A stretch of 64,000 nt of DNA, from the IMG/VR virus record IMGVR_UViG_3300035703_000043, positions 1 to 64,000 of that record; one strand, 5' to 3'. Under the pieces are notes generated by a model. The model was not told where the DNA came from. It saw nothing but the letters and a program-made list of their open reading frames with translations, and made no database searches. The position numbers and the translations under genes are program-made. Numbering within the stretch: position 1 is the first letter of the stretch; each line of letters begins with the position of its first letter. This document shows, piece by piece, positions 8,863-30,937 of the stretch. The DNA is from a virus.

Positions 8863-9285
8863 ATGCCCAGACCTCTACAAATAACAGGAACAAAAATTTG
8901 CACTACTTGTGGTGTAGAAAAAGATATTAACCAATTTTATTTTCGGGGTGGAAATTATTCTCCAAATAGTCGTAAGTCAAAATGCAAAGAATGTGATAAA
9001 AAAAGAGTTGCAGAAAATTACGATCCTATTAAATATCAAGAACAACATCTTAAACGATCATATGGCATAACTCTAAACGAGTATAACCAAATGCTTGAAG
9101 GGCAAGATTACAAATGTATTACTTGCGGTACTACTGATCCTGGCGGCAAGCACGGAAAGTTTATGGTAGATCACTGCCACTCCACTGGTAAGGTTAGAGG
9201 TTTGCTTTGTAAGTCGTGTAATATTGCTCTTGGAGAAATAAAAGATAATAAGCAAACATTACAAAATATGCTTAATTACCTGTAA
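8863..9285 (+). CDS. Recombination endonuclease VII-like HNH nuclease
   Basis: A 140-residue zinc-binding HNH/treble-clef nuclease. The N-terminal part has CTTCG...KCKECDKKR (a CxxC/CxxC zinc knuckle). The C-terminal core has YKCITCGTTDPGG, VDHCHSTGKVRGLLCKSCN and ALGEIKDN, the signature of the endonuclease VII family. T4 endonuclease VII resolves branched DNA, but many small free-standing members act as homing endonucleases. The position exactly between psbA and psbD, with its own late-type promoter, fits a homing element. A general DNA-processing role remains possible. Confidence 0.88.
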   Translation: MPRPLQITGTKICTTCGVEKDINQFYFRGGNYSPNSRKSKCKECDKKRVAENYDPIKYQEQHLKRSYGITLNEYNQMLEGQDYKCITCGTTDPGGKHGKFMVDHCHSTGKVRGLLCKSCNIALGEIKDNKQTLQNMLNYL

Positions 9286-10558: not shown

Positions 10559-10584
10559 GGAGTTCTAAACGGACTCCTTTTTTT
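10559..10584 (+). terminator. Rho-independent terminator of the psbD unit
   Basis: GGAGTTC (10559-10565) pairs with GGACTCC (10571-10577, one G-T pair) around TAAAC, followed by seven T. Confidence 0.92.
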
Positions 10585-10665
10585 ATGGCATTTCTTTTAA
10601 TACTCTTTCTCTTTGAACTTTTTGGTGTTATTATGTTCATATTATCAGTCGCACAAGATTTCTAA
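10585..10665 (+). CDS. Possible tiny membrane peptide (26 aa)
   Basis: MAFLLILFLFELFGVIMFIL then SVAQDF: a single hydrophobic helix. It begins right at the end of the terminator T run and has no ribosome binding site of its own, so it is doubtful. Listed because tiny membrane proteins are common in this genome. Confidence 0.25.
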   Translation: MAFLLILFLFELFGVIMFILSVAQDF

Positions 10666-10690
10666 TACATACAATAGTTACCTTTTAACT

Positions 10691-10852
10691 ATGAAAACTA
10701 TAACTTTCACAGAAGAACAAGTTAAACTTCTGGCAGATGCTGTATGGATGCGTCAACGTCGTTTTATTGCAGGAGATAAACGATTTAAAGAATATGGTGA
10801 AATATTAAATGATATTCTTGAAAATATGGACTATACCCCATCAAGATTCTGA
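10691..10852 (+). CDS. Conserved small cyanophage protein (53 aa)
   Basis: MKTITFTEEQVKLLADAVWM begins a small soluble helical protein that ends NDILENMDYTPSRF. The TFTEEQV...A.W.RQR...GD...EYG pattern is one I associate with a recurrent small cyanophage protein of unknown function. The start at 10691 is preferred over 10613, whose extra N-terminus reads like untranslated AT-rich sequence. The metallophosphoesterase starts 2 bases after it. Confidence 0.6.
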   Translation: MKTITFTEEQVKLLADAVWMRQRRFIAGDKRFKEYGEILNDILENMDYTPSRF

Positions 10853-10854
10853 TT

Positions 10855-11562
10855 ATGACTTACGATACAGTTTTTCTATCTGATGTTCATTTGGGCACTC
10901 CAAGATGTGATACTGAAAAATTTTATAATTTTCTTAAAAACTTAAAAACTAAAAAGTTGGTATTGGTCGGTGATATTATTGATATTCACTGTATGGAAAA
11001 ATATAATACCCGTTGGACAAAGGAACATACAAAATGTGTTCATCAAATTTTAAACTTGGCAAAAAAAGGAACAGAAGTCATTTATATTCTTGGAAATCAC
11101 GAAGCAGAAATTCGTCGTTATACTAATTTTGAACATAAGAACTTTCAAATGGTAGACGAATACACTCATAAGGACTCAAAGGGTAATAAGTTTCTTTGTA
11201 TTCACGGTGATAAGTATTCGGAATATTCTTCTGGGTCTTGGAAGCAGTTGATGTTCAATAAAGGATATGAGATCATTACACCATTAAGTTTATTTCTGGA
11301 AAGATTTTTTAGATTCTCTTTGGTGTATGCTTTAAAAAATACGGTTCGTGGTAAAAATTATATTGATCGTTATGAGACTGATATTGCATCATATTGTGTG
11401 CAAAGAGATAAGAAGTATGATGGTGTAATCTGTGGGCACATTCATCACGGAAATGTGAGATACTTTAATAAACTTTTGTATATGTGCTGTGGTGATTGGT
11501 GTGATACCTGTTCTGCGATTGTGGAGAAAAATGGAATTTATGCTCTTGAAAAATATAAATGA
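10855..11562 (+). CDS. Calcineurin-like metallophosphoesterase (LpxH/UDP-diacylglucosamine hydrolase type)
   Basis: All five metal-binding motifs are present: D10-V-H12, GDIID (39-43), GNHE (80-83), HGD (117-119) and GHIH (194-197). Order, spacing and the 235-residue length fit the family that includes LpxH-like UDP-2,3-diacylglucosamine pyrophosphatases. The substrate cannot be read from the sequence. Other possibilities are a nucleic-acid or nucleotide phosphoesterase. It is coupled by ATGA overlap to the next small gene. Confidence 0.85.
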   Translation: MTYDTVFLSDVHLGTPRCDTEKFYNFLKNLKTKKLVLVGDIIDIHCMEKYNTRWTKEHTKCVHQILNLAKKGTEVIYILGNHEAEIRRYTNFEHKNFQMVDEYTHKDSKGNKFLCIHGDKYSEYSSGSWKQLMFNKGYEIITPLSLFLERFFRFSLVYALKNTVRGKNYIDRYETDIASYCVQRDKKYDGVICGHIHHGNVRYFNKLLYMCCGDWCDTCSAIVEKNGIYALEKYK

Positions 11563-11681
11563 TTAGTTCGGAGACACCCTATAAACTTGCAGAGATTATC
11601 AGGAATACCTGGCCAGGTCTTTACAGAAAACCAGAACCATCTTATAATGAAGAAAAGGAATTGAAAAATGAAAAAGTATAA
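11559..11681 (+). CDS. Small hypothetical protein (40 aa)
   Basis: MISSETPYKLAEIIRNTWPG is followed by a charged tail (NEEKELKNEKV). ATGA-coupled to the phosphoesterase upstream and overlapping the next gene by 14 bases, so it sits in a tight operon. The IIRNTWPGLYR segment looks like a conserved short motif, but I cannot name a family. Confidence 0.5.
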   Translation: MISSETPYKLAEIIRNTWPGLYRKPEPSYNEEKELKNEKV

Positions 11682-11958
11682 CGAAGAATATTTTTCAGTC
11701 ATTGAAACCAAGACTGGAAGAAAGATTGTTGATTGTGGTGATGAGATGGATGCACTGACAATGGTTTCCTTTGACCCACAAAACCGAACCATTACAAGAA
11801 ATAAGATTCTGATGAGTCCTGTGATTGATATTGAGATTCCGAAGGCACTTCCTACATCTAATGTTGTTATGTCTAATGTTCAAGAGAATGTTCGTCATCA
11901 GGAACAACTTGGGCAAATCAAATTACCAGAAGGTCAAGGAGAACCTGTGGTGGTATGA
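11668..11958 (+). CDS. Hypothetical protein (96 aa)
   Basis: A small soluble protein with a structured-looking N-terminal half (YFSVIETKTGRKIVDCGDEM, ALTMVSFD) and a low-complexity C-terminal half rich in N, Q, V and P. Beta-strand-like alternation in the first 50 residues. It lies between two coupled small genes and overlaps the next start by 4 bases. No family recognised. Confidence 0.6.
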   Translation: MKKYNEEYFSVIETKTGRKIVDCGDEMDALTMVSFDPQNRTITRNKILMSPVIDIEIPKALPTSNVVMSNVQENVRHQEQLGQIKLPEGQGEPVVV

Positions 11959-12158
11959 ACCATCGTAAACATAAACAAGCAGAGAATCTCAAAAAGAAAA
12001 AGATGTATACACCTGAGGGTTACGTTGGAGACCCCCCAGATGCTAAATGTCCACACTGCGGGGAGTCTGGAAAATCTTGTTCTCACGTAAATAGTTTAAG
12101 TCGTGCTTGGGCAAGGAGTGCTTGTGCCCATAAATACAAGAAAACTAATAATAGTTAA
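11955..12158 (+). CDS. Small zinc-ribbon-like basic protein (67 aa)
   Basis: Contains KCPHCGESGKSCSHVN, with CxxC and further Cys/His that could bind zinc, embedded in a lysine-rich protein (HRKHKQAENLKKKKM start, AHKYKKTNNS end). Likely nucleic-acid-associated, though no target can be inferred. Coupled by ATGA to the previous gene and immediately followed by the adhesin gene. Confidence 0.6.
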   Translation: MNHRKHKQAENLKKKKMYTPEGYVGDPPDAKCPHCGESGKSCSHVNSLSRAWARSACAHKYKKTNNS

Positions 12159-13745
12159 ATGGGAAGATATATTAAGACAAGAATTGTTACTGATGGATTG
12201 ATTTATCTGAATGATGCTGGAAATAGTAAGTCATATTCTGGTGTAGGAACAGCAATCAAGAATTTAGTGGGTTATGGTGCCACAAATACAGCATTTGATC
12301 AAACATTTGTATCCTCAGGAACAACAAGTCATTTTATATCTACAACTACTTCATCTTATATAAGCAATACAAATGTAAGTGTAAGTGCCTCTACGGGAAG
12401 AGGATTTACGATTTGTATGATGGTGAAACCACAGACGTTAACAAATAGTGAATGGAATTATTGGTTTCAACAGGATAGTTCTAGATCTTCAGTTCAATTT
12501 GGAAGATATGGAACTTCTGGTGGATGGCAGATGAAGGACAATGCAAAACAAGAAGGGCAAAAAGTTTTTACTTCAGTCGGAACTACAACTTGGACTGTTC
12601 CAGTTGGTGTGAGCACTATTACTGCTATATGTGTTGGTGGTGGTGGAGGAGGTGGTGGACACAATTCCTCAGAAGGAGGAGGAGGTGGTGGAGGTGGTGG
12701 ACTATCATTTGGTTCTACTATATCTGTAACTCCAGGTGATGTTTTATACATAAGAGTTGGAAGTGGTGGAACTGGAGGAATTTCAACAACTTCATTTTCT
12801 GGTGGTACTGCTGGAGCAGGTTCAACTGGACAATCAAGTTATATAAAAACAGGGTCCCATTCTGGAACTTCTCTTCTTGAGGCTTTTGGTGGAACTGGAG
12901 GACAAGGGGGAGAAAATGGAGAAACTTATCCAAGTCCTGGAGTTGGGGGAACATTTGGAGGGACTTCATCGACTAATGGTGGAAATGGTGGAATTGGAGG
13001 AAGAGGAGGATCTTCTTATTCTGGTGGAGGTGGAGGTGCTGGTGGATATACTGGAGTTGGTGGAACTGGTGCTAGATCTAGTGGAACTAATGCTTCAGAT
13101 AGATCCACTTCTGGTCTTGGTGGTGGAGGAGGTGGAGGAGGAAATAGTCAAGGTAGTTTAGTAGTTAGTACATATTCAGAAATTTTAAATTCTGGAGGTG
13201 GAGTTGGAATATATGGATCAGGTGCTAATGGGTCTGGGGGAAACTATACATCTGGATATGATAATAGAGGTGGAGGTGGTGGAAGTTCGGGGGCAACTGG
13301 AGGATCTTCTGGGGGACTTTATGGTGGAGGTGGTGGAACACGACCAGAGAGTACTTTAGGAATCAATTACGTAAGGAACGGTGGTCAAGGTGGTCAAGGT
13401 GCTGTAAGAATTGTATGGGGTTCTAATAGATCTTATCCATCCACTAATGTTTCTAATGTTGCTATACCACCAACACAATCCACATCATTTAGTGACTGGA
13501 CTTTTGTTGTTTGCGGAGTAACAACAAACTATTATACTTTTATATCAACTAATGGATCTACTAAAACATTAGGTTCTTCAAATGATTGGAATAATTCTGA
13601 TGAAATTAATTTAAATAAAATATTTGGAACAGGAACAAGTAATTACAGTTGCTTATGGAACAATTGTATGATTTATAATCGTGAATTAACAAATGAAGAA
13701 ATCCAAATAAACTTTGAAGCATTTAGACGTAAGTTTAATCTCTAA
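12159..13745 (+). CDS. Glycine-rich LamG-like adhesin / fibre protein
   Basis: A 528-residue protein with three parts. Residues about 1-130 resemble the first half of a LamG/concanavalin-like beta-sandwich (GLIYLNDAGNSKSY, TICMMVKPQ). Residues about 131-418 form a glycine-rich domain, from TTWTVPVGVSTITAICVGGG through many poly-Gly runs to GQGAVRIVWG. This is the usual start and end of the phage glycine-rich domain family. Residues about 419-528 return to the LamG-like fold (DWTFVVCGV, WNNCMIYNRELTNEEI). The glycine-rich block therefore looks inserted inside the sandwich. A host-recognition role is likely by analogy with glycine-rich phage adhesins. It lies apart from the main fibre cluster. 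Confidence 0.75.
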   Translation: MGRYIKTRIVTDGLIYLNDAGNSKSYSGVGTAIKNLVGYGATNTAFDQTFVSSGTTSHFISTTTSSYISNTNVSVSASTGRGFTICMMVKPQTLTNSEWNYWFQQDSSRSSVQFGRYGTSGGWQMKDNAKQEGQKVFTSVGTTTWTVPVGVSTITAICVGGGGGGGGHNSSEGGGGGGGGGLSFGSTISVTPGDVLYIRVGSGGTGGISTTSFSGGTAGAGSTGQSSYIKTGSHSGTSLLEAFGGTGGQGGENGETYPSPGVGGTFGGTSSTNGGNGGIGGRGGSSYSGGGGGAGGYTGVGGTGARSSGTNASDRSTSGLGGGGGGGGNSQGSLVVSTYSEILNSGGGVGIYGSGANGSGGNYTSGYDNRGGGGGSSGATGGSSGGLYGGGGGTRPESTLGINYVRNGGQGGQGAVRIVWGSNRSYPSTNVSNVAIPPTQSTSFSDWTFVVCGVTTNYYTFISTNGSTKTLGSSNDWNNSDEINLNKIFGTGTSNYSCLWNNCMIYNRELTNEEIQINFEAFRRKFNL

Positions 13746-13774
13746 ATAGTCATAAGTTGCAAAAACTTATGACT
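13741..13774 (+). promoter_or_regulatory. Late promoter overlapping a start-codon-sequestering hairpin
   Basis: TCTAAATA (13741-13748) is a late-type motif. It abuts an 11-bp perfect hairpin, 13748-13758 with 13764-13774, loop GCAAA. The ATG of the HNH gene (13769-13771) lies in the 3' arm. A late transcript starting near 13754 would lack half of the 5' arm and leave the start free, whereas upstream read-through RNA would hide it. The stem is also followed by CCTTTTC and could act as a weak terminator for the adhesin gene. Confidence 0.55.
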
Positions 13775-14140
13775 CCTTTTCATTCGTCTGAAGAATATTT
13801 GTTCAATCTTTACACAACAAGTTCTGGAGAGGCAAGACGAATATGGAGACAGCACATTAAAGAAAATTGGAATCATAAGTGTGCTTACTGTGGTTCTGAA
13901 GAAAAATTAACTATTGATCATATAGTTCCAAGATCAAAGGGTGGTACTGATTTTACAAATAATGTTGTGTGCTGTTGTCAAGAATGCAATCATGATAAAG
14001 GGCACACAGATTGGGAAGATTGGTTCTCAAAGCAAATCTTTTTTACAGAAGAAAAAAGAAGTGCTATAATAAAATGGATGCACAATAAGCAAGAGCAAGT
14101 GCTCTATAAATATCCTCAAAGACAAAATAAAGTTTTATAG
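13769..14140 (+). CDS. HNH endonuclease
   Basis: A 123-residue HNH nuclease. CAYCGSEEKLTIDHIVPRSK followed by GGTDFTNNVVCCCQECNHDK contains the paired cysteines of the zinc site, the catalytic DH and the asparagine of the HNH motif. It resembles free-standing phage HNH enzymes that spread by homing. The start at 13769 is preferred over 13757 because it follows the late motif by 20 nt; its ATG lies inside an 11-bp hairpin. It sits between an adhesin gene and glutaredoxin with no sign of an intron. Confidence 0.88.
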   Translation: MTPFHSSEEYLFNLYTTSSGEARRIWRQHIKENWNHKCAYCGSEEKLTIDHIVPRSKGGTDFTNNVVCCCQECNHDKGHTDWEDWFSKQIFFTEEKRSAIIKWMHNKQEQVLYKYPQRQNKVL

Positions 14141-14144
14141 TATT

Positions 14145-14393
14145 ATGAATTTTACAGTTTATTCAAAACAAGGTTGTCCTTATTGCGATAAGGTAAAGAC
14201 AATTTTAAATCTTCTGAGTGAATCAAAGGGATATAAAATTACTTCATATGAACTCAACACTGATTTTAATAGAGAGCAATTTTATTCCGAATTTGGAGAA
14301 GGTTCAACATTTCCTCAGGTAATTTTAAATGATTTGCATCTTGGTGGATGTACCGATACGATTTCTTATTTGAAAGAAAATAATATGCTCTGA
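14145..14393 (+). CDS. grx: Glutaredoxin
   Basis: An 82-residue glutaredoxin with the CPYC dithiol active site (C11, C14), the TFPQV cis-proline loop and the C-terminal GGCTD motif. It is a complete thioredoxin-fold domain. In T4-like phages glutaredoxins supply electrons to ribonucleotide reductase; whether this phage carries an RNR cannot be seen here. It lies 4 bases after the HNH gene. Confidence 0.92.
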   Translation: MNFTVYSKQGCPYCDKVKTILNLLSESKGYKITSYELNTDFNREQFYSEFGEGSTFPQVILNDLHLGGCTDTISYLKENNML

Positions 14394-30727: not shown

Positions 30728-30937
30728 ATGAATTTACAACAATTCATACATAATATAAATGATGAATTAGGAAATTCATCATTAAATAAACAAAGAAAAA
30801 GATACTTAGAAGCACATTTGGAAGAACTTTTGGAATATCAAAAGAACAATCCAAATAATACTTTAATACCAAATGCATTAGAACTATTTTGCGATTTAAA
30901 CCCAAACGCACTGGAGTGTAGAATTTACGATGATTGA
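30728..30937 (+). CDS. Small conserved protein in hub cluster (69 aa)
   Basis: MNLQQFIHNINDELGNSSLN then a helical region (KRYLEAHLEELLEYQKNNPN) and ALELFCDLNPNALECRIYDD. It is wedged between gp27-like and gp5-like genes and overlaps the latter by 8 bases. Probably an assembly factor by position; no family recognised. Confidence 0.6.
   Translation: MNLQQFIHNINDELGNSSLNKQRKRYLEAHLEELLEYQKNNPNNTLIPNALELFCDLNPNALECRIYDD

Follow-up and report, generated by a model that had tools for sequence, protein, structure and literature searches.

The start of an HNH endonuclease gene in a T4-like cyanophage raises the question of whether a late promoter and an overlapping RNA hairpin together delay its translation. 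The promoter-hairpin trick as such has been described before, in phage T4; within the wording that we searched, we found no paper on this arrangement in cyanophages. We studied the locus in a window of 64 kb (the whole stretch of DNA analysed) from a virus record of 94.6 kb. The window belongs to a T4-like cyanophage and encodes psbA, a second photosystem II reaction-centre gene, an Endo VII-type endonuclease, thymidylate synthase, a helicase loader and a gp33-type late co-activator.

Table 1. Features around the start of the HNH gene (positions in the window)
Feature	Position	Strand	Basis or remarks
Glycine-rich gene, upstream of the HNH gene	12159..13745	+	Pfam Gly_rich_2; own CATAAATA 22 nt before ATG
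Late-type promoter box TCTAAATA	13741..13748	+	TAAATA spacing in relatives; overlaps stop codon of upstream glycine-rich gene
Hairpin 5′ arm AGTCATAAGTT	13748..13758	+	Bases before ~13754 would be absent from late RNA
Predicted late mRNA leader AAGTTGCAAAAACTT, 15 nt	13754..13768	+	Family form AAGTYGCAnnnACTT; position-by-position counts; no Shine-Dalgarno sequence
Hairpin 3′ arm AACTTATGACT, contains start codon	13764..13774	+	ATG pairing probability ~1.0 in read-through RNA (predicted)
HNH endonuclease gene, 123 aa, conserved ATG start	13769..14140	+	Pfam, PHROG matches; relatives align from residue 1
Glutaredoxin gene, downstream of the HNH gene	14145..14393	+	Pfam Glutaredoxin 2.4e-11

A probable late promoter and leader that accompany a probably mobile HNH gene

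The gene product carries an HNH nuclease motif (Pfam HNH_5, E = 1.6e-14; HNH, E = 2.4e-10; PHROG 2214, E = 1e-32). Relatives with 50–60% identity are present in many Kyanoviridae, and near-identical ones in viral contigs. An alternative start, the TTG at 13757, was rejected because relatives with AAGTCGCA lack the TTG and relatives align from the ATG. Comparison of loci indicates that the gene moves between genomic sites and is thus mobile in effect: in 71 locus pairs the ORFs are at least 85% alike while neither flank is alike (the loci are related and the pairs not independent). In S-SRM01, the named phage closest by DNA, the gene sits elsewhere and is missing before the glutaredoxin-like gene. 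From these context changes we regard the nuclease as a putative homing enzyme.

The first-pass annotation had proposed a late-type promoter before the HNH start, and a fixed spacing across the family bears this out. We gathered relatives by protein, blind to upstream DNA and motif, and added phage records, which gave 89 distinct upstreams. TAAATA ends 19–23 nt before the HNH ATG in 82/89 (19 or 20 nt in 77) and occurs at no other position within 75 nt upstream of the ATG. A frequent form of the box is CTAAATA, with C at the second box position in 20/61. Across the whole window CTAAATA is not overrepresented (15 occurrences vs. 16 expected), so the weight of the motif rests on its position. A late promoter NATAAATA has been published for cyanophages (PMC2984593), and the window encodes a gp33-type co-activator in keeping with late transcription; we consider a late promoter before the HNH gene very likely. 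Three distant HNH relatives from T7-like cyanophages (L202, L203 and L204) have neither late box nor leader, and two of the three adjoin a terminase small-subunit gene.

Late transcription in T4 begins roughly one helical turn past the box (PMC2988020). From this rule we infer an RNA start at ~13754, inside the 5′ arm of the hairpin, and hence a 15-nt leader. Where TAAATA is present, it mostly lies 20–25 nt before window gene starts (e.g., 1880, 8863, 12159, 16817 and 48403), so many late-type leaders in the window would be only ~15–20 nt long. The gene at 8863–9285 is the Endo VII-type endonuclease, which sits between the two photosystem II reaction-centre genes, beside psbA; its own TAAATA is 22 nt before the start, and it has no start-codon hairpin.

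Box, leader and HNH ORF appear to form one unit. In pairs of loci that share the ORF and have unrelated upstream DNA, identity is ~0.3 up to −29 (0.36 at −40 to −29), and homology begins at the box; among same-ORF pairs in different contexts it is 0.88 for the box, 0.62 for the spacer, 0.89 for the leader and 0.94 for the ORF. The spacer, the outer arm just 5′ of the predicted start, shows the lowest conservation within the unit. The leader pattern TAAATA N4 TAAGTYGCA NN RACTTATG occurs in 84 stretches of viral contigs, and all of the 80 examined precede the same HNH gene. A second pattern, TAAATA-N5-AAGTCGCA, was rejected as a general late-leader motif, as 53/116 sites precede this HNH gene and the other 63 have no consistent gene at that spacing.

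Exchange may also occur within the unit. Common upstream DNA is joined to different ORFs in 151 locus pairs, which again come from related loci and are not independent. Three loci (L098, L084 and L164) join upstream DNA and a leader from one lineage to the HNH ORF of another, and look as if exchange had occurred inside the 20-nt leader. One possibility, which we hold tentatively and put below an even chance, is that promoter, start-site spacer and 15-nt leader are a mobile Kyanoviridae regulatory cassette that travels with the HNH gene and offers a joint at which HNH alleles are swapped. For some of the family this cassette would also be a late-only translation lock, hiding an AUG that lacks a Shine-Dalgarno sequence in whatever transcription unit it enters.

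The hairpin at the start codon

The hairpin is a perfect 11-bp stem closed by a 5-nt loop, GCAAA, with the HNH ATG (13769–13771) within its 3′ arm. Box and hairpin share the last A of TCTAAATA, with which the 5′ arm begins, and the TAA of the box doubles as the upstream gene's stop codon. The first-pass annotation had the hairpin, the ATG in its 3′ arm and the box at exactly these positions, and their combination is not a chance one, given the spacing of the promoter in relatives and a local fold of −15.8 kcal/mol vs. −5.2 ± 2.0 in shuffles (z = −5.4). Hairpins with perfect 11-bp arms (loop 3–8) number two in the 64-kb window, vs. one in total in ten Markov shuffles. The other of the two is at 30758, near the start of a small ORF (30728–30937).

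The hairpin is strong solely in the window's own group and in some of the wider family. Near relatives may have any of A, C, T and G at 13749, which disrupts pairing with 13773, and the outer 2 bp of the stem vary even among these relatives, leaving a conserved core of 9 bp (TCATAAGTT/AACTTATGA) that is intact across the whole window clade. Several subfamilies of relatives keep the promoter and have lost the stem (e.g., leader AGATGCTTTCCTAA). By the cut-off that we used, 45/137 loci (about a third, in a set that includes loci found by motif) are switch-like. In the stem 77% of cells are paired vs. 34–46% when slid, but covariation is weak, with 15 double changes vs. 10.5 ± 2.6 in shuffles. 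The loop TCGCA is conserved too, and the stem does not account for this.

Predicted folds differ between read-through and late RNA. Whereas the ATG is predicted to be paired at ~1.0 in the window's read-through RNA, an RNA that begins at 13754 retains a stem of 5 bp, with an ATG pairing probability of 0.02–0.03 (62 nt of coding sequence folded) or 0.35 (40 nt). RNAs from 13752 or 13753 are predicted still to pair the A of the ATG (0.97 and 0.83, respectively), so the exact start position matters. Among 82 relatives, mean ATG pairing is 0.74 in read-through and 0.59 in late RNA (P = 6e-7, Wilcoxon; the sequences are related and not independent), and shuffling the 5-nt spacer reduces the read-through mean from 0.74 to 0.65 (P = 1e-4, Wilcoxon). 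CAT lies opposite the ATG, at −18 to −16, in 11/38 distinct contexts vs. 1.2 ± 1.1 in shuffles. The energy drop at the HNH leader (−13.1 to −2.1 kcal/mol) has no comparable counterpart among the other late-type leaders of the window, where the next largest is −5.7 to −1.7 kcal/mol.

Longer RNAs could reach the HNH gene, as no terminator is predicted on the + strand from 10580 to 13748. The late-type box of the upstream glycine-rich gene implies that some read-through RNA would itself be late. Stem strength is unrelated to upstream terminators (switch-like 7/16 vs. 38/121, P = 0.40), and we rejected the idea that such terminators replace the stem.

A proposed delay of translation and its rivals

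These observations suggest a mechanism in two halves, of which the transcription half is strong and the RNA half plausible and best developed in the window clade. At late times RNA polymerase with gp55/gp33-type factors would start at ~13754 and yield AAGUUGCAAAAACUU-AUG, an almost leaderless message in which the remaining 5-bp stem would leave the AUG open. Read-through RNA from genes further upstream, which we assume crosses the hairpin early, would add UCAU just 5′ of that point, and the resulting 9- to 11-bp stem would shut the AUG, so that this RNA would be poorly translated. With the AUG open in late and closed in read-through RNA, the nuclease would be made late, as are I-TevI and MobE. 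We judge it somewhat better than an even bet that a T4-like cyanophage here carries late promoter, short leader and HNH gene as a portable unit with a late-RNA hairpin switch, and we lean about as far toward a functional hairpin at the HNH start. The first-pass claim of a hidden start therefore stands in part: the predicted late start does fall inside the 5′ arm and the predicted folds do free the ATG in late RNA, but the hairpin is conserved as a 9-bp core in the window clade and not family-wide, its outer pairs vary, covariation is weak and the stem is unrelated to upstream terminators.

The main rival holds that the late promoter and short leader act alone. HNH would then be a late gene, the leader would be conserved for transcription start or for Shine-Dalgarno-free initiation, and the clade's long hairpin would be a by-product of the AAGT/ACTT symmetry plus a TCAT spacer. 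We consider this rather unlikely. In its favour, the promoter is nearly universal and the stem is not, covariation is weak, spacer identity (0.62) is below that of box and leader, and the stem has no link to upstream terminators. Against it, CAT and pairable spacers occur well above shuffles in distinct contexts, shuffling the spacer reduces ATG pairing, and the 9-bp core is intact across the window clade.

Two other readings make the element something other than a translation switch. The imperfect palindrome ATAAGTCGCAnnnACTTAT could be a putative DNA operator over the start site, with the HNH protein repressing its own late promoter as I-TevI does; by analogy, the I-TevI operator overlaps the I-TevI late promoter (PMC2988022), and both the palindrome and its central TCGCA are conserved and occur with this HNH family. 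Many arm departures from Watson-Crick pairing are G-U pairs, however, although these are also common transitions, and the motif is absent from some subfamilies, which makes an operator improbable. It is very improbable that the hairpin serves the glycine-rich gene as an intrinsic terminator or a processing signal. It does lie 2 nt past that gene's stop codon and is listed, with CCTTTT, by a simple scan, but the T run falls in HNH codons 3–4 and is broken in relatives that keep the stem (CCTCTT; GGGACCTCTACA), the stem has only three G-C pairs, and a search of Rfam returned no known RNA family at E up to 1. We rejected the intrinsic terminator, finding neither a G+C-rich stem nor a conserved T run.

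Returning to the late-RNA switch, the HNH locus is probably a cyanophage member of the T4-type class of late-promoter/hairpin delayed translation. A late promoter lies in or just before the 5′ arm, and the AUG is predicted to be paired in long RNA. The arrangement has been reviewed for I-TevI, I-TevII, I-TevIII, SegB and Aeh1 MobE (PMC2988022). In the three T4 I-Tev genes longer RNAs fold a hairpin that blocks initiation, and a late or middle promoter is placed so that its RNA misses the 5′ arm (PMC2988022); there the Shine-Dalgarno sequence is hidden and the genes lie in introns, whereas the window's gene is free-standing, belongs to a cyanophage, has no Shine-Dalgarno sequence and has the AUG itself paired. 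MobE, an HNH endonuclease of Aeromonas phage Aeh1, and SegB of T4 are likewise free-standing endonuclease genes with this arrangement (PMC2988022, PMC3014915). What sets the window's locus apart is that the ORF keeps its promoter and leader in many genomic contexts; its likeness to MobE is one of arrangement. In the T4 lysozyme gene e, late promoters lie within the 5′ strand and the Shine-Dalgarno sequence and/or AUG is sequestered in long RNA (PMC3014915), but e is a lysis gene and not a mobile endonuclease, and it is absent from the cyanophages examined in that review (PMC3014915). F-CphI of cyanophage S-PM2 is a free-standing homing endonuclease of a T4-like cyanophage that carries an Endo VII motif (PMC6083498), and the window's Endo VII-type gene is not the HNH gene. 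The first-pass parallel with I-TevI and several late genes thus holds for the published precedent, the promoter and the predicted folds, but not for a family-wide stem.

If the switch operates as proposed, the abundant T4-like viruses of cyanobacteria also use the delayed expression known from T4 homing endonucleases; the mobile gene would bring along its own clock, and control of initiation would act on a bare AUG. Dozens of naturally occurring variants of the fixed unit, some with the stem and some without it, lend themselves to a direct test. A further box, TATAAATA at 14105–14112, lies within the 3′-terminal part of the HNH gene, with the glutaredoxin ATG 32 nt further on, and may be a promoter of that downstream gene embedded in the endonuclease gene, comparable to those reviewed for several T4 endonucleases.
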